Positions 4,723 through 62,740 of a stretch of 62,740 bases of DNA are shown here, one piece after another. The position numbers and the translations under genes are program-made. Every line of letters begins with the position of its first letter. Position 1 is the first letter of the stretch. The stretch covers positions 206,072 to 268,811 of the forward strand of contig MTON01000024.1 of the NCBI GenBank assembly GCA_002010665.1, written 5' to 3'. Source of the stretch: Candidatus Aminicenantes bacterium JdFR-78. Lineage in GTDB: Bacteria; Acidobacteriota; Aminicenantia; JdFR-78. Below the pieces are notes generated by a model that made no database searches, was not told the origin of the DNA, and saw nothing but the letters and a program-made list of their open reading frames with translations.

Positions 4723-5763
4723 TCAATATTTTAAGATCTCTTTAAAGGCTTTTATAGTCTTTTCAACATCTTCATCATTTATATCCTTGTGAGTAACAAG
4801 ACGAATTCGTCCTGCTAGACCGAGGGCAAGAATGCCTTTTTCTTTCAATTTATTTAAAAATTCCTGAATGGAAATTCTTGGATGATTAAATTTTAAAAAG
4901 ATAATGTTAGTTTCAACATCTTTTGGATCCAACTCTATTCCAGGCAAATTACAAATTCCCTCTGCTAATCTTTTGGCTCTATTATGGTCCTCAGCTAGTC
5001 TATCAATCATTTCAGTAAGAGAAATAATTCCTGCTGCTGCAATAACACCGACCTGTCTCATTCCTCCACCAAGAAGCTTTCTGATTCTTCTTGCTTTTTC
5101 AATAAATTCTTTACTTCCTGCAAGTAGTGAACCAATAGGAGCTGAAAGCCCCTTGGAAAGACAAAACATCACAGAATCCACATATTTTGTATATTCTTTA
5201 ACAGGAACACCAGAAGAGATACTGGCATTGAAAATTCTAGCACCATCAAGATGTATTTTTAATCCGTGTTTATCTGCTATTTCTCTCATAGCTCTAAAAT
5301 TATCAATAGGAACAACTGCTCCCCCCCAGTAATTATGTGTATTCTCAATGCATATCAAGGAAGTTCCAGGAATATGAAGCGCTGGCTTCCGGATAGCTTT
5401 TTCAACTAATTCAGGATCCATAGCCCCTCTTCTGGATGGAAGCGGTCTGGGTATAACTCTTGAAATAAATGCAATGTGAGTCGATTCCATATTGTATATA
5501 TGTGATCTCTCCTCCACAATTATCTCCTCGAGTTCTTTTGTCCATACCTTAACTGCTATTGAATTTCCCATTGTTCCTGAAGGAACAAATAAAGAAGCCT
5601 CTTTTCCAATCTTTTCAGCACCAAGCTCTTCTAATTTTTTAACAGTCGGGTCATCACCAAACACATCATCTCCCACTTCAGCATTGGCCATTGCAAGTCT
5701 CATTTTTCGAGTGGGTTTTGTAACAGTGTCACTTCTAAAATCAGAAAATATCTTTTCTCCCAT
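4723..5763 (-). CDS. ltaE: Low-specificity L-threonine aldolase
   Basis: This 346-aa fold-type I PLP enzyme cleaves L-threonine or L-allo-threonine to glycine and acetaldehyde. It begins with the family signature FRSDTVTKPT, has HLDGAR around residue 171 and carries the PLP Schiff-base lysine K204 in CLSKGLSAP. The length is normal. GGAGGT precedes the ATG. It faces the Fe-S oxidoreductase gene tail to tail with only 4 nt between the stop codons. Confidence 0.92.
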   Translation of the reverse strand: MGEKIFSDFRSDTVTKPTRKMRLAMANAEVGDDVFGDDPTVKKLEELGAEKIGKEASLFVPSGTMGNSIAVKVWTKELEEIIVEERSHIYNMESTHIAFISRVIPRPLPSRRGAMDPELVEKAIRKPALHIPGTSLICIENTHNYWGGAVVPIDNFRAMREIADKHGLKIHLDGARIFNASISSGVPVKEYTKYVDSVMFCLSKGLSAPIGSLLAGSKEFIEKARRIRKLLGGGMRQVGVIAAAGIISLTEMIDRLAEDHNRAKRLAEGICNLPGIELDPKDVETNIIFLKFNHPRISIQEFLNKLKEKGILALGLAGRIRLVTHKDINDEDVEKTIKAFKEILKY

Positions 5764-57672: not shown

Positions 57673-57872
57673 TTATTTTTTTAAAATTTCATTTATCTGT
57701 TTTAAAAATTCTTCAAAATCATTTATATTTGCTAACGAAGAGTATAAATATTCTTTTTATCTTTCAGAAACGCTTCTTCTTCCAGAGCTATCAAAGATTT
57801 TATTTCAGAAATTGTATCCAGAAGGTCCTTTTCCAGAGTTTTGATTTTTTCAATGTTTATTTCTTTATGCAT
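57673..57872 (-). pseudogene. Remnant of a hepT (HEPN/DUF86) toxin gene
   Basis: An ATG at 57872, overlapping the mntA stop by 16 nt, opens a 46-codon frame whose product (IEKIKTLEKDLLDTISEIK, then EEEAFLKDKKNIYTLR) is a HEPN/DUF86-like N terminus. It stops at TAG 57732. A shifted frame to TAA 57673 reads NINDFEEFLKQINEILKK, a DUF86-type C terminus. The central part with the RX4-6H RNase motif is missing. About half of the usual ~400 bp is left. Confidence 0.75.
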
Positions 57873-58279
57873 TCCATAAGCTCTTTGAAATAGGATTTAG
57901 AAAATTCATAATAATCCATGTATTCCAGTCCAACTTTTTCTAAAAAATCAAGTCTCAAAAGCCTATCTCTTTCAAAAAGCAAAGTGCCTTCATTTATCAC
58001 TGAAAACTGGAATCCAATGGGTGCATAATTAATTACTTTAAAATCCACATTAAATCCAGTCTCTCTTTCAATTTCAGAGGTTATATCAAGTTCAAAATCA
58101 AATACTTTATCCTCAGGTATAAGACAATACCCAGCTATATCAATATCTCTGAAAGGCTGGAGCCCAAATGAACCGTGCAAATAGGCAAAAGATATTTCCT
58201 TATGTTTTAAAAGAACTGATATAATTTTTTGTTTTATCTTCTCAATTTCCTCAGGGGACAATTCAAACCTTTGTGCCAT
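57857..58279 (-). CDS. MntA-type minimal nucleotidyltransferase (antitoxin of a HepT-MntA pair)
   Basis: The 140-aa protein has the nucleotidyltransferase motif GS (36-37) followed by DIDIAGY with D45/D47, shorter than the classical spacing (GS-X7-DxD). Family members AMPylate and so neutralise HepT (type VII toxin-antitoxin). The partner hepT downstream is broken. Start ATG 58279 is preferred to GTG 58282 because the promoter -10 box is only 7 nt away. Confidence 0.82.
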   Translation of the reverse strand: MAQRFELSPEEIEKIKQKIISVLLKHKEISFAYLHGSFGLQPFRDIDIAGYCLIPEDKVFDFELDITSEIERETGFNVDFKVINYAPIGFQFSVINEGTLLFERDRLLRLDFLEKVGLEYMDYYEFSKSYFKELMECIKK

Positions 58280-58286
58280 CACGCTA

Positions 58287-58379: not shown

Positions 58380-60221
58380 ATGAAAAAAAAGTTTTTAGAA
58401 TTACTGAAAGACAGAGTTCTCCTCTGCGACGGTGCAATGGGCACCATGCTTTACAATAAAGGAGTTTATCTTAATAGCTGTTTTGATGAATTGAATCTTT
58501 CCAATCCAGAACTTGTGAAAAAGATTCATCAGGAATATGTGGATAGCGGTGTGGATATAATAGAAACAAATACATTTGGAGCAAATCGCTATAAATTAAA
58601 AAAATTTGGTCTGGAGGAAAAAGTAAAGGAAATCAATATTGCAGGAGCAAAAATTGCACGAGAAATTGCACAGAATAAAGTTTTTGTTGCTGGTTCTATA
58701 GGACCTCTTGGATTGAAAATTGAGCCATGGGGACCAACTTCTTTTGAAGAAGCAGAAGAAGCTTTTTATGAACAGGCTTCTGGATTGCTGGAAGGAGGAG
58801 TGGATTTATTCATTCTTGAGACATTTTCAGATGTCAATGAAATACATCAAGCAATAAAAGCAGTAAAAAGGCTCTGTGACCTGCCTATTATAGCTCAGAT
58901 GACCATTGAGGAAGATGGAAACAGTCTATATGGAACTTCTCCTGAAGTTTTCACAAGAAGACTTGAGGAATGGGGAGCAGATGTAATTGGAGTAAATTGC
59001 AGTGTTGGACCTGCTGCTACTTTAGCATGTATTGAAAGAATGGTTAAAGTTACTGATAAACCACTCTCTGCAATGCCAAATGCAGGTGTTCCAAGAAATG
59101 TGGAGGGAAGAAATATTTACTTATGCTCACCTGAGTATTTAGCAGAGTATGCAAAGAGATTTATTCTGACAGGAGTGAAGATTGTTGGAGGATGCTGTGG
59201 AACAACTCCTGCTCATATAAGAGCAGTAAGAAGAGCAATCAGAGCTCTTCAACCAGAGAAAAAGGTCTTTCCGAAAATTGAGATAAAAGAAATTGAGAAA
59301 AAACCTGAGATAAAACCTGTAGAAAGAAGAGAAAAATCACAGCTTGCAAGGAAACTTTGCGATAAGGAGTTTGTAATAAGTGTTGAGATTGTTCCTCCAA
59401 GGGGATTTGACCCCTCCCCTGCTCTTGAAAAGGCAAAGTGGTTAAAGGAAATGGGAATTGATTGTGTGAATATACCAGATGGTCCAAGGGCAAGTGCACG
59501 CATGAGTGCAATGTCTTTAGCTGTAATAATAGAAAATAAAGCAGGAATTGAAACAATATTGCACTATACATGTAGAGATAGGAATCTTCTTGGTATGCAA
59601 TCTGACCTGCTCGGGGCATATGCTCAGGGATTGAAAAATATCCTTGTTATTACAGGAGACCCACCTAAGATGGGCGATTATCCTGATGCAACAGCGGTTT
59701 TTGATGTTGACTCAATTGGGCTTTGCAATCTGGTGAATGCTTTAAACAGAGGTATTGACCTTGGAGGAAAAGCACTTAAGAAGCCGACTGGTTTTCATCT
59801 TGGAGTTGGAGCAAATCCAGGAGCTATAAATCTGGATTATGAGATAAGGCGTTTTGAATATAAAGTGGAGGCTGGAGCTGAGTTTGCAATCACCCAGCCT
59901 GTATTTGACATTAAGTTATTGGAAAATTTTCTTAAAAGAATTTCCCATTGCAGAATTCCAATTATTGCTGGAATCTGGCCATTGGCGAGTTTACAGAATG
60001 CAGAATTTATGAATAATGAGGTTCCTGGTGCAAGAGTTCCTCCTGAAATCATGGATAGAATGAGAAAAGCAAATGAAAAAGGAAGCGAATTCGCCCGCCA
60101 GGAAGGAATCGCAATTGCCCGAGAAGTCCTCTCTGAAATTAAAGATATGGTCGAAGGAGTTCAGATTAGCCCTCCGTTCGGAAGAGTAGAAGTGGTGAAG
60201 GAGATAATTTCGGTTTTGTGA
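58380..60221 (+). CDS. Bifunctional homocysteine S-methyltransferase / 5,10-methylenetetrahydrofolate reductase
   Basis: The 613-aa protein has an N-terminal homocysteine S-methyltransferase domain (about 1-290; LCDGAMGTML, zinc cysteines C207, C272 and C273 in GVNCSVGP and GGCCGTTPAHI) and a C-terminal MTHFR domain (about 325-613; VEIVPPRGFDPS near 353, LLVITGDPP-like ILVITGDPPKMGD, GVGANPGA and a flavin-site AGAEFAITQPVFD). The fusion is known in Firmicutes and other lineages (YitJ type). It supplies methyl groups for methionine; MetH/B12 partners are outside the window. Its 3' end is partly copied at 61237-61284. Confidence 0.92.
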   Translation: MKKKFLELLKDRVLLCDGAMGTMLYNKGVYLNSCFDELNLSNPELVKKIHQEYVDSGVDIIETNTFGANRYKLKKFGLEEKVKEINIAGAKIAREIAQNKVFVAGSIGPLGLKIEPWGPTSFEEAEEAFYEQASGLLEGGVDLFILETFSDVNEIHQAIKAVKRLCDLPIIAQMTIEEDGNSLYGTSPEVFTRRLEEWGADVIGVNCSVGPAATLACIERMVKVTDKPLSAMPNAGVPRNVEGRNIYLCSPEYLAEYAKRFILTGVKIVGGCCGTTPAHIRAVRRAIRALQPEKKVFPKIEIKEIEKKPEIKPVERREKSQLARKLCDKEFVISVEIVPPRGFDPSPALEKAKWLKEMGIDCVNIPDGPRASARMSAMSLAVIIENKAGIETILHYTCRDRNLLGMQSDLLGAYAQGLKNILVITGDPPKMGDYPDATAVFDVDSIGLCNLVNALNRGIDLGGKALKKPTGFHLGVGANPGAINLDYEIRRFEYKVEAGAEFAITQPVFDIKLLENFLKRISHCRIPIIAGIWPLASLQNAEFMNNEVPGARVPPEIMDRMRKANEKGSEFARQEGIAIAREVLSEIKDMVEGVQISPPFGRVEVVKEIISVL

Positions 60222-60390: not shown

Positions 60391-60741
60391 TTATTCATCA
60401 GTGCCCAGTTTTGCAAGAATGTTTTCTATCTTTTCTTTTAATTCTGGGACTTTATTCTTAATAATATCCCATATAATTTCTGTGTCTATGCCAAAATAAA
60501 CATGAATAAGAATATCTCTTAGCCCTCCGATCTTTTTCCATTCTACATCTGGATTGTCTTTCTTAATACTTTCAGGTATGTTTTTTGTCGCTTCTCCTAT
60601 AATTTCAAGATTTCTTACTACCCCATCTTGAATTAACTCATTCTTCTTAAATTCTTCCAAACTAATATTTTCTGTGTATCTATTAATCTTATTTATTGCT
60701 CTAAGAATATCTTTGAGGTATGCTTTATATTCCCGTGGCAT
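60391..60741 (-). CDS. HepT (HEPN/DUF86) toxin
   Basis: The 116-aa HEPN protein (AYLKDILRAINKINRYTENI, then GEATKNIPESIK) keeps the catalytic RX4H motif, R75 to H80 in LRDILIHVYFGID. It is a predicted RNase toxin of the type VII system. It overlaps the mntA start region by 17 nt, so the antitoxin is made first. In contrast to the pair at 57.7-58.3 kb, both genes here are intact. Confidence 0.88.
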   Translation of the reverse strand: MPREYKAYLKDILRAINKINRYTENISLEEFKKNELIQDGVVRNLEIIGEATKNIPESIKKDNPDVEWKKIGGLRDILIHVYFGIDTEIIWDIIKNKVPELKEKIENILAKLGTDE

Positions 60742-61027
60742 ACTTCACATTCTCTAATATATTGGATTTTAAATCAGGTTTTATAGTTTCTATAATTACA
60801 AGATCTACTTTACAATTGAATAAGTCCTCTAAAAAGAATTTCAGATCCATATAATTATCAAAAGTTTTCATCCCTTTTTCAAACTCTACTAATATGTCTA
60901 TATCACTTCCTGACTTTTGTTCATTACGAACATATGAACCAAATAAGCCTATTTTCTTAACCCCAAATCTTTTGATTTTTTTCTTATTTTCTTTAATTTT
61001 TTCTAATATTTCATCTGATTTTAACAT
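60725..61027 (-). CDS. MntA-type minimal nucleotidyltransferase (antitoxin)
   Basis: The 100-aa protein has GLFGSYVRNEQKSGSDIDILVEF with the catalytic GS-X10-DxD pattern (G30, S31, D42, D44). It is expected to AMPylate HepT. GGAGG lies 9 nt before the ATG. It is a different subfamily from the 140-aa protein at 57857. Confidence 0.88.
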   Translation of the reverse strand: MLKSDEILEKIKENKKKIKRFGVKKIGLFGSYVRNEQKSGSDIDILVEFEKGMKTFDNYMDLKFFLEDLFNCKVDLVIIETIKPDLKSNILENVKYATGI

Positions 61028-61189: not shown

Positions 61190-61333
61190 AAGAGGAAAAA
61201 TTGTTCTTCCAAGAAACAATTGTTTTCATCGCACAAATCAAAGATGTGGTCGAAAATGTTCAAATCAGCCCACCGCTCGGAAGAAAATTCACACGAAAGC
61301 GTGAGCTGAAAACAAATATCCACTATTATTAAA
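61190..61333 (+). pseudogene. Relic of a metF-like 3' end
   Basis: The frame between a TAA at 61187-61189 and a TAA at 61331-61333 contains 16 codons (61237-61284) whose translation IKDVVENVQISPPLGR matches IKDMVEGVQISPPFGR at the C terminus of the bifunctional enzyme (60138-60185). Nucleotide identity is 39 of 48 by my count, with many of the changes at third positions. The flanking codons show no match. Confidence 0.75.
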
Positions 61334-61347
61334 AGTCAACAAATAAT

Positions 61348-62433
61348 CTATCCAATTTCTTCTTTTATCCATAGTTTTTCACCTTTGACCCAATCTGTTA
61401 CTATTTGCTTATAATCTTCTTTAATTTTGTATATATGATCTTTCTCACTGTGACTCCACGAACTCTCAATTATATCCTCTTTTTCCAATGGCTTTCTCCT
61501 CATTTTCAACCCAGCTCGAGCCCCAGCAATATCTCTACCCGTTATCTTTTTATCAATTCCTTCAGATGGCCTTCTCTTAGCAATTTCGTTCATCAAAAAA
61601 GTTACTGTTTTACTCGTTGCTGGCTCTTTATCAACTTGAACTAAAGCTGCTAAAAGTAATCGTTGATATGGAGTTGAGTCTTTCAAATATGAAAGAAGTT
61701 CGGCTTTTGTCCAAGGTTCTTCTTTCTTAGCAAACTCCTCTGATTTTCCTTCACCTGGTTCCTCTTCTACAGTTGATTTTGTTGTTGCTATTTCTATTAT
61801 GAGCCTAACTATATTTCCTATATTAATGCTTTCCACAGGTAGAAGAAGATTTTGAACTTTTTCAATAGCTTCTTTTTCTCCTATTACCGGCACTAATTCC
61901 TCTTTTAAGTTTATTATTTCCATCAAATCTTCATAAAGAACCAAACGCATTCTATCTTTATATTTACTCCCAAGAATTTGCTCAGTTAAAGGTTGTATAT
62001 CACCTTTACCAATAATATATAAGCCGAAAATACTTCCTTTTTCTGTTTCCTTAGATAGTTTTTCAAGGTAATCGCCAAGTTGAGTTACACTGCCAATGGG
62101 CCATGTACTTGTTTTAACTTCAAGGACTATAGTATCTCCGTTCTCTCTCCTCCAGACTCCATCATAGTTATCTTCTCCTGATTTTCCTACATACCGTCCA
62201 TATTCTATTTCAAATCCGAGTCTTTTCCCTAATGATATTGCTAAATCCTGAAATGCTCGATTATAAGGGTCATGAGCACCAGAACTTTTGTTTATACATT
62301 CATCTAACCACCCTTTTATTTGCTCAGAAGACCATTTATCTTGTTCTATAAATTCTCTAAACCTTTCTGCTTGTTCAGCTCCATCTTTTAGTTCATTTCC
62401 TATTAAGTGCAAAATATCTTTTATTTCAATCAT
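61348..62433 (-). CDS. PD-(D/E)XK nuclease-like protein with winged-helix-like C terminus
   Basis: The 361-aa protein has a helical N terminus (1-50), a PD-(D/E)XK core: the helix FQDLAISLGKRLGFEIEYG, D91 in DNYDGVW, E105 and K107 in IVLEVKTS, and a RecB-like Q118-X3-Y122. A charged linker follows (about 225-245), then a C-terminal domain (about 250-355: SYLKDSTPYQRLLLAALVQ, then GRDIAGARAGLKMRRKP) resembling a winged helix. No methyltransferase lies beside it, so it is an orphan restriction-like nuclease, probably defensive. AAGGAG precedes the ATG. I do not recognise a named family. Confidence 0.65.
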   Translation of the reverse strand: MIEIKDILHLIGNELKDGAEQAERFREFIEQDKWSSEQIKGWLDECINKSSGAHDPYNRAFQDLAISLGKRLGFEIEYGRYVGKSGEDNYDGVWRRENGDTIVLEVKTSTWPIGSVTQLGDYLEKLSKETEKGSIFGLYIIGKGDIQPLTEQILGSKYKDRMRLVLYEDLMEIINLKEELVPVIGEKEAIEKVQNLLLPVESINIGNIVRLIIEIATTKSTVEEEPGEGKSEEFAKKEEPWTKAELLSYLKDSTPYQRLLLAALVQVDKEPATSKTVTFLMNEIAKRRPSEGIDKKITGRDIAGARAGLKMRRKPLEKEDIIESSWSHSEKDHIYKIKEDYKQIVTDWVKGEKLWIKEEIG

Positions 62434-62472
62434 TTTATAACTCCTTTTTTATTAATTTTCTGATTGTTGACT

Positions 62473-62518
62473 TATATCCGCTCATTTTTGGTGTATATAC
62501 GCTCTTTTGCGGATATAC
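62473..62518. promoter_or_regulatory. Operator-like array upstream of the nuclease gene
   Basis: TATATCCGCTC (62473-62483) and TATATACGCTC (62494-62504) are direct repeats exactly 21 nt apart. The second copy also forms an inverted repeat, GTATATACGC (62493-62502) with GCGGATATAC (62509-62518), 9 of 10 bases complementary, 6-nt gap. The array lies 40-85 nt before the nuclease start, where a repressor would act. The GATATAAG within it could serve as the -10 box. Confidence 0.55.
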
Positions 62519-62612
62519 ATTTCATACCTTTAACAATAAAAAATTTTTAATTCTTAAATCCGAATCAGCTCTTAATCCTCTTTGCCTACTCTGCACTCGA
62601 AACCCCTTTTCC

Positions 62613-62643
62613 TTTTATCACAATAAAAAAATAAATGTCAAGT
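62613..62643. repeat. Imperfect direct repeat, right copy
   Basis: TTTTATCACAAT followed by an A-tract and TAAATGTCAAGT; see the left copy at 61144-61173. Together they bracket a 1.5 kb segment containing the nuclease gene. Confidence 0.35.
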
Positions 62644-62740
62644 TTCAGAATTCTCTTGGCCAAAATAGATATAGACATATTTACCAGTTAGAGAGGAAAA
62701 AGTTAATAAAGAGAGTTGAGGCTGCCCATCACATCCTGGG

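Follow-up and report, generated by a model that had tools for sequence, protein, structure and literature searches.

Near its right end, the window (the whole stretch of 62,740 bp that was analysed) carries a nuclease gene on the minus strand. The genes and gene remnants around it are the following.

60391-60741, minus strand: hepT (Pfam HepT-like, 4e-32).
60725-61027, minus strand: mntA (Pfam NTP_transf_2, 1e-18).
61235-61284, plus strand: 3'-end relic of metH/MTHFR type between the nuclease gene and mntA, 82% identical over 50 bp to 60136-60185.
61348-62433, minus strand: nuclease coding sequence of 361 aa, identified by its ATG start, homologues and codon-position bias.
62660-62740, no strand assigned: end (81 bp) of a multicopy repeat; about 14 more near-identical copies occur elsewhere in the genome, most of them at the ends of contigs.

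The nuclease open reading frame lies exactly where it had been predicted and is a genuine gene, relatives of which occur in distant bacteria and archaea. Between the window gene and the homologue L004 the differences at codon positions 1, 2 and 3 amount to 0.15, 0.06 and 0.45, from which we conclude that the protein is under purifying selection; 136 of the codon changes are synonymous and 61 nonsynonymous. Profile searches in PADLOC, Pfam, NCBIfam and PHROGs yielded no family name for the protein.

The hepT-mntA pair had been correctly recognised beside the nuclease gene (60391-61027, minus strand), with Pfam matches for both genes and NCBIfam equivalogs just below the cut-off. Its proposed value as an informative neighbour was not confirmed, as the gene relic intervenes and none of the homologues of the window type has HepT-MntA adjoining. 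The pair was also considered as a partner of the nuclease and rejected because of the relic, an own promoter-like stretch and its absence beside the window-type homologues. It is a separate toxin-antitoxin unit outside the nuclease system. It is situated between the end of a metH/MTHFR-type gene (60221) and a diverged second copy of that end. A stand-alone MntA-like nucleotidyltransferase is encoded at 57857-58282 (minus strand; Pfam Polbeta, 2e-16), with no obvious HepT partner beside it. The repeat at 62660-62740 is probably the end of an IS element at which the assembly broke.

The nuclease module and its C-terminal partners

The nuclease can be divided into the following parts.

61789-62433, minus strand: N-terminal module (residues 1-215), a helical lead-in and a PD-(D/E)XK core, recognised from invariant residues, structural model and Foldseek matches.
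62161-62163, minus strand: codon of D91, invariant in the alignment of homologous N-modules.
62119-62121, minus strand: codon of E105, likewise invariant.
62113-62115, minus strand: codon of K107, likewise invariant.
61702-61788, minus strand: charged variable linker (residues 216-244), pLDDT 30-45.
61351-61701, minus strand: C-terminal domain (residues 245-361), predicted H-H-H-E-E-H at low confidence.

D91, E105 and K107 were found at the positions claimed for them and are kept, together with G92, W94 and Y122, across 12 aligned N-modules with identities down to 29%, counting the homologues that span these positions. The motif Q118-X3-Y122 of the original prediction stands in part: both residues are present and Y122 is invariant, but Q118 is replaced by L or I in divergent homologues. 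The AlphaFold model of residues 1-200 (pLDDT about 85) contains the expected alpha-beta-beta-beta-alpha-beta core, so that structure prediction supports the PD-(D/E)XK assignment of the N-terminal region. When the model was compared with the PDB by Foldseek, HindIII (E 4.7e-5), Nt.BspD6I (E 2.5e-4), Shedu SduA (8ps5, E 4.5e-4) and R.BspD6I2 (TM 0.56 on the target) were retrieved and EcoO109I and EndoMS also matched; on the query the TM-scores are only 0.2-0.37, partly since large parts of the query have a poor model. Weak, sub-threshold matches to the NucS profile cover the catalytic region, that in L006 having an E value of 0.0006. When the PDB was searched with a profile of the N-module, the sole match was a helical repeat, which was judged spurious. 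By its catalytic triad and its predicted core fold, the part comprising residues 1-215 is a PD-(D/E)XK nuclease.

The charged linker (about residues 216-244) is present as described before, and the model has no confident structure there. The C-terminal domain is strongly conserved in the window-type branch, with 88% mean column identity (n=6 copies), and in its AlphaFold model the pLDDT stays below 50 over much of the domain. On the low-confidence H-H-H-E-E-H pattern of predicted secondary structure the domain reads as winged-helix-like; of the 'wing-like' domain proposed before, this pattern could be seen, but a confident fold was not obtained. Searched alone, the domain gave neither a profile match nor a fold match, the fold search being uninformative given the poor model. 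A profile search with this domain had been suggested as a way to find its other fusion partners; it occurs only in this protein among 396 genomes of the same phylum and had no match in viral contigs and plasmids, so that no other fusion was found in these sets. Pfam and NCBIfam revealed no SRA, EVE, YTH or DpnI_C reader in the window protein. We regard the C-terminal domain as a probable DNA-reading domain.

More distant relatives carry the N-module with other partners. In L013 the module is joined to a domain that resembles EVE (Pfam E 0.022, under the cut-off), and in five relatives (L014 and L076-L079) it is followed by an unnamed C-terminal domain with the motif YW(F/Y)A(F/H/V)H...YWH/Q. 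The C-terminal domains are swapped and the nuclease is therefore a module whose partners can be exchanged, which is what one would expect were the partner domain to determine the target of cleavage.

Two relatives of the branch with the unnamed domain (type 2, not window-type) are situated among restriction-modification or methylase genes. After L077 comes a type I system (hsdM/S/R) with a methylase (E 4.6e-260), a specificity-like open reading frame and a restriction subunit (1.6e-163), in this order. L076 lies between two cytosine-5 methylases, together with a GHKL ATPase. None of the window-type homologues was found in a classic defence island; they reside in integron-type cassettes or alone beside argH. 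The suggested clustering in defence islands is thus seen for the two type-2 relatives but not for the window-type copies. In the loci read, the window-type gene has no evident methylase next to it, the window contig ending 307 bp upstream of the gene at the multicopy repeat. Of the single-protein defence nuclease with a sensing C-terminal domain that had been put forward, the restriction-type nuclease and the separate, swapped domain hold, but not the location in defence islands or the informative HepT-MntA neighbour.

The group at L076 (2257-12733), which comprises the two methylases, the GHKL ATPase and the type-2 nuclease, also includes a HepT-MntA-like pair and a response-regulator-like protein with weak similarity to SduA. 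The pair is about 4 kb away and was counted as coincidence.

Distribution and integron-type cassettes

In the species-level genome collection eight loci encode relatives of the nuclease. The three intact homologues have 67-83% amino-acid identity to the window protein.

L004: WOR-3 MAG, intact, 82%.
L006: Desulfobacca, intact, 70%.
L007: Syntrophobacterales, intact, 68%.
L005: Thermococcaceae MAG, one frameshift, which may be an assembly error.
L008: Nitrosotalea MAG, truncated copy.
L009: second WOR-3 MAG, partial at a contig edge.
L010: Omnitrophica, broken by stops and a deletion.
L011: Micrarchaeota, partial at a contig edge.

These host names depend on the bins of the MAGs, and binning errors could misassign some of them; given the thin genome sampling the family size is a lower bound. 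The gene was detected in 3 of 198 (own genome included), 7 of 395 and 1 of 115 genomes, which disagrees with the possibility, raised along with the original prediction, that the homologues are always core genes. In L006 the nuclease gene separates argG from argH; in L007 it precedes argH. These two are the only cases among 20 argH loci from the order of G200. In a sister genome with a 92% identical argH, argG and argH are about 80 bp apart without a nuclease gene, and a second sister genome, also with a 92% identical argH, likewise has none between them. Since the gene is rare and the argG-argH site is empty in sister genomes, we conclude that it is accessory and does not belong to the core. 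The family is rare, patchy and sometimes broken.

Searches of phages and viral contigs revealed no relatives. A haloarchaeal plasmid of Halalkalicoccus (L015, 8001-8341) carries an isolated fragment from the N-terminal part of the module, probably a pseudogene. With this one partial match on a plasmid and none in phages and viral contigs, an origin from a phage or plasmid was rejected.

The vehicle of several window-type copies is the integron-type gene cassette, a feature that had previously gone unnoticed. Among L004, L005, L009, L010 and L011 the DNA similarity extends beyond the coding sequence on one or both sides. The L004 gene is flanked by GTTATCGGAAATCGCCA (-42 to -26) and TGGCGACTTCCGATAAC (+7 to +23), which form an inverted repeat of 17 bp with a single mismatch, and L010 has a terminal inverted repeat of 16 bp, also with one mismatch. 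The downstream arm of L004 runs into an element of about 90 bp which recurs elsewhere in G202, G203 and G205 as well as in the window's own genome (G000:C23:31261-31347). Six of these elements have two arms in the order of integron attC sites (R''-L''...L'-R'), and the 5' end of the cassette is complementary to R'' in L004 (17 bp) and in L010 (16 bp).

In the arms of the six elements 77.5% of the cells are paired, compared with 71.1 +/- 2.2 in shuffles (3/500), and seven pairs are changed on both sides (19/500 shuffles); the alignment was built, apart from the relatives of L004 themselves, from sequences similar to L004 and the pairs were named from the same alignment, so that the covariation test is partly circular. 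We take the covariation as supportive rather than as independent proof, and the slid controls, with only 24-48% paired, argue against a pure artefact. When folded as single-stranded DNA, three attC-like sequences did not surpass their shuffles (z 0.04 to -1.35) and, for this reason, the attC evidence is founded on arm covariation and not on folding energy. An Rfam search of these loci gave no attC-like family match. A covariance model of the attC sites detected L004 (1e-25) and L009 and, outside its training set, L011 (4e-9), L010 (1e-8) and L005 (3e-6). Sites with paired R and L boxes follow the gene in L004 and L009; the site is degenerate in L011, and in L005 and L010 attC sites are only nearby. 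In the whole genomes the model found 24 sites in G202, six in G198, seven in G205 and four in G204. Those of G202, a Nitrosotalea-labelled MAG whose bin may be mixed, are on contigs C158, C18 and C164, several of them about 0.5-1 kb apart on C158. No attC site was found at the argH-side copies L006 and L007. Between the nuclease gene and argH of L006 (about 5000-5020) the sequence GTTATGTGAAATGG resembles the right end of an attC site and is too short to judge.

We also considered that the terminal inverted repeats might delimit a transposon whose transposase is the nuclease; this was rejected, as the repeats lead into covarying attC-like sites and arrays. In these attC-like sites, cassette-end repeats, arrays and the sharing across domains, the loci agree with the integron cassettes described in PMC9024848 and PMC9668308. 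Unlike in complete integrons, no integron integrase scored over the cut-off in the 11 genomes, whose assemblies are fragmented, and the best matches were read as XerC/D-like. Clusters of attC sites without an integrase are a known pattern (PMC9024848), and the sites reported here follow it. For archaeal MAGs, integrons and cassette sharing across domains have been published, and restriction and methylation functions as well as toxin-antitoxin functions are common cassette cargo there (PMC9668308). Restriction endonucleases are mentioned in the main text of that paper as cargo in general, but no word beginning with 'nuclease' is used in it. At G203:C230 (L039/L033, WOR-3 MAG) an attC-like site was noted by eye between apparent DNA methyltransferase and restriction-endonuclease genes; restriction-modification genes may travel in such cassettes.

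In the window the following features surround the gene.

61283-61328, minus strand: left half of an attC-like site (TAATAGTGGATATTTG...), scored against the attC site of C23; right half missing.
61330-61342, minus strand: 3' inverted repeat arm TTGTTGACTTTTA (+6 to +18, R''-like position), pairing with the 5' arm.
62464-62476, minus strand: 5' cassette-end inverted repeat arm TATAAGTCAACAA (-43 to -31), placed where L004 has its 17-bp arm.
62477-62530, minus strand: leader with GCGKATAT motifs directly before the cassette start, a possible attI-like insertion site.
62546-62659, minus strand: leader that contains a promoter-like stretch of the TTGACA type and matches the C23 cassette leader over 115 bp with 88% identity.

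A textbook single cassette of the integron type is present elsewhere in the window genome (L066, 16640-17350, on G000:C23), behind a PIN-domain (VapC-like) toxin gene. It has the structure G/TTAGGCG...gene...CGCCTAAT-AGTGGACATA...TATGTCC...GTTAGGAG. Its cargo was read by eye as an isoprenylcysteine-methyltransferase-like gene.

Judged from these features, the window copy is likely an immobilised, eroded solo cassette. The alternative is that it is not a cassette, that its repeats and half-site arose by chance in AT-rich DNA and that the gene arrived by another route, which we consider unlikely. It concerns the vehicle and would be compatible with any functional reading. The arms TATAAGTCAACAA and TTGTTGACTTTTA share 10 exact bp, a value reached by 95 of 5000 shuffles (p about 0.02, weak alone) and as such in keeping with chance, but they stand at the same distances from the gene as the arms of L004 and L010. 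The half-site was not detected when the window was scanned with the attC covariance model, a complete attC after the gene being absent, and scored only 17 against the attC site of L004 (105/1000 shuffles), which favours the alternative; against the site of C23, however, it scored 33, compared with 15.2 +/- 2.7 in shuffles (0/1000). In the window the place of the right attC half is taken by the metH/MTHFR 3'-end relic. Also against the alternative, the leader is common to the window copy and the clear cassette in the same genome. The stretches directly before the cassette start are similar between the window and L004 (42 versus 24 +/- 4, 0/500 shuffles), between C23 and L004 (51 versus 24 +/- 4, 0/500) and, to a lower degree, between the window and C23 (34 versus 25, 18/500); on this similarity they may constitute an attI-like site.

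Function of the nuclease

As the best explanation, with about an even chance of being correct, we propose a stand-alone restriction nuclease without a partner methylase, which would cut foreign-looking DNA and is carried alone in an integron-type cassette. A role in restriction and defence as such is likely, and the gene is probably a portable anti-phage gene; that modified bases are read has somewhat less than an even chance. Cleavage restricted to foreign-looking DNA would make a partner methylase dispensable, and the simplest foreign sign would be a base modification absent from the host. The protein would then act as a single-protein barrier of the type IV or type IIM-like kind against phages and plasmids, sparing the host DNA since the host would not have the recognised feature, and the gene would spread as the only gene of its cassette. 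The computations themselves show the nuclease fold with its catalytic triad, the swapped modules, a patchy occurrence with empty sites and, for several copies, cassette ends with covarying attC-like sites; that the protein cleaves DNA, that its C-terminal domain reads DNA, that it depends on a modification and that it acts against phages are inferred.

Among the known systems the nuclease would work most like DpnI or the type IV enzymes. DpnI is an m6A-dependent single protein with an N-terminal PD-(D/E)XK nuclease followed by a C-terminal winged helix, and it needs no methylase (PMC10101028). The window protein resembles it in being a single protein with the nuclease first and probably no need for a methylase, the winged helix being a low-confidence pattern here. 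Unlike DpnI, it does not contain the conserved cysteine pairs, and it is longer (361 versus about 257 aa) and has a charged linker of considerable length. Against DpnI alignments hhalign gave a probability of about 0.2% or less for both domains, and there was no Pfam match; the DpnI alignment used was derived from eight genomes, and its profile retrieves 4esj/4kyw. Homology to DpnI was therefore rejected. The designation as an undescribed system was overstated, since the domains of DpnI come in the same order (PMC10101028), though no sequence homology was found. EVE domains are among the reader types known from modification-dependent enzymes, as in VcaM4I, which combines EVE with HNH (PMC7897488). 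With VcaM4I and the type IV enzymes of the Mrr/McrBC type the window protein shares a nuclease joined to a separate reader of modified bases, here a candidate reader. Unlike in VcaM4I, this candidate is neither EVE nor SRA, and the nuclease is PD-(D/E)XK instead of HNH.

Lone spread into unrelated hosts without a methylase leaves two possibilities: either the nuclease requires a mark that the host lacks, following the logic of DpnI and type IV enzymes, or it is held back until triggered, following that of Shedu. In the second case the C-terminal domain would sense a phage protein, a DNA end or a structure and release a nonspecific or nicking PD-(D/E)XK nuclease, and no modified base would be involved. 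This is conceivable, if rather unlikely. SduA is a single-gene PD-(D/E)XK protein and among the best structural matches (8ps5, E 4.5e-4), the nickase BspD6I was also matched, and a single gene without methylase and with swapped sensor domains suits such a mode of action. Yet no SduA/DUF4263 family profile matched. In Shedu the order of the domains is the reverse of that in the window protein, where the nuclease is N-terminal, and the EVE-like domain of one relative points to base reading. We prefer modification-dependent reading because of the DpnI-like domain order and this EVE-like domain. Against this preferred explanation stand the poor model of the C-terminal domain, the missing homology to DpnI, the EVE match below the cut-off and the fact that no window-type copy is in a defence island, as well as the lack of relatives in phages and viral contigs, the half-present attC of the window copy, the absence of an integron integrase over the cut-off and the missing attC sites of L006 and L007.

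A sequence-specific type II enzyme, with its methylase elsewhere in the host or lost and possibly acting as a selfish addiction gene in the cassette, is improbable. The closest folds are indeed type II enzymes (HindIII, BspD6I and EcoO109I), L076 sits between cytosine methylases, and the attC site of G203:C230 separates apparent methylase and nuclease genes. The matches of the module to R.BspD6I/Nt.BspD6I and HindIII are partial (TM 0.34-0.56), and unlike the window protein these enzymes have cognate methylases or subunits. In none of the loci read, bacterial or archaeal, is a methylase evident beside the window-type gene, and a lethal cutter without methylase should not spread alone. A nuclease for DNA repair or recombination, comparable to EndoMS/NucS or to very-short-patch enzymes, or else a housekeeping helper in cassette recombination, could be suspected from the weak NucS profile matches and the structural match to EndoMS but is very improbable in view of the rare and patchy occurrence (7/395) with broken copies and most genomes without the gene, the swapped C-terminal domains, the restriction-modification neighbours of the relatives and the argH-side copies without attC. 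Both an ordinary type II enzyme and a repair role are less likely than the modification-dependent and the Shedu-like readings.

In a limited search of the open-access literature, covering main texts, no publication naming this nuclease family was found. A module family with swapped readers, carried in integron-type cassettes across bacteria and archaea, is new as far as searched. A bolder claim, which we consider unlikely, would be an unnamed modular family of restriction nucleases with at least three interchangeable readers, whose winged-helix branch, exchanged among bacteria and archaea on a single-gene integron cassette, recognises a DNA modification or other feature read by no known enzyme. 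Should the proposed function be correct, a compact one-gene restriction barrier would cross the boundary between bacteria and archaea by means of integron-type cassettes, and research on integron cargo would be connected with modification-dependent defence. In the conserved C-terminal domain we see a candidate for a new reader of DNA or of base modifications, and in the module a possible source of reagents.
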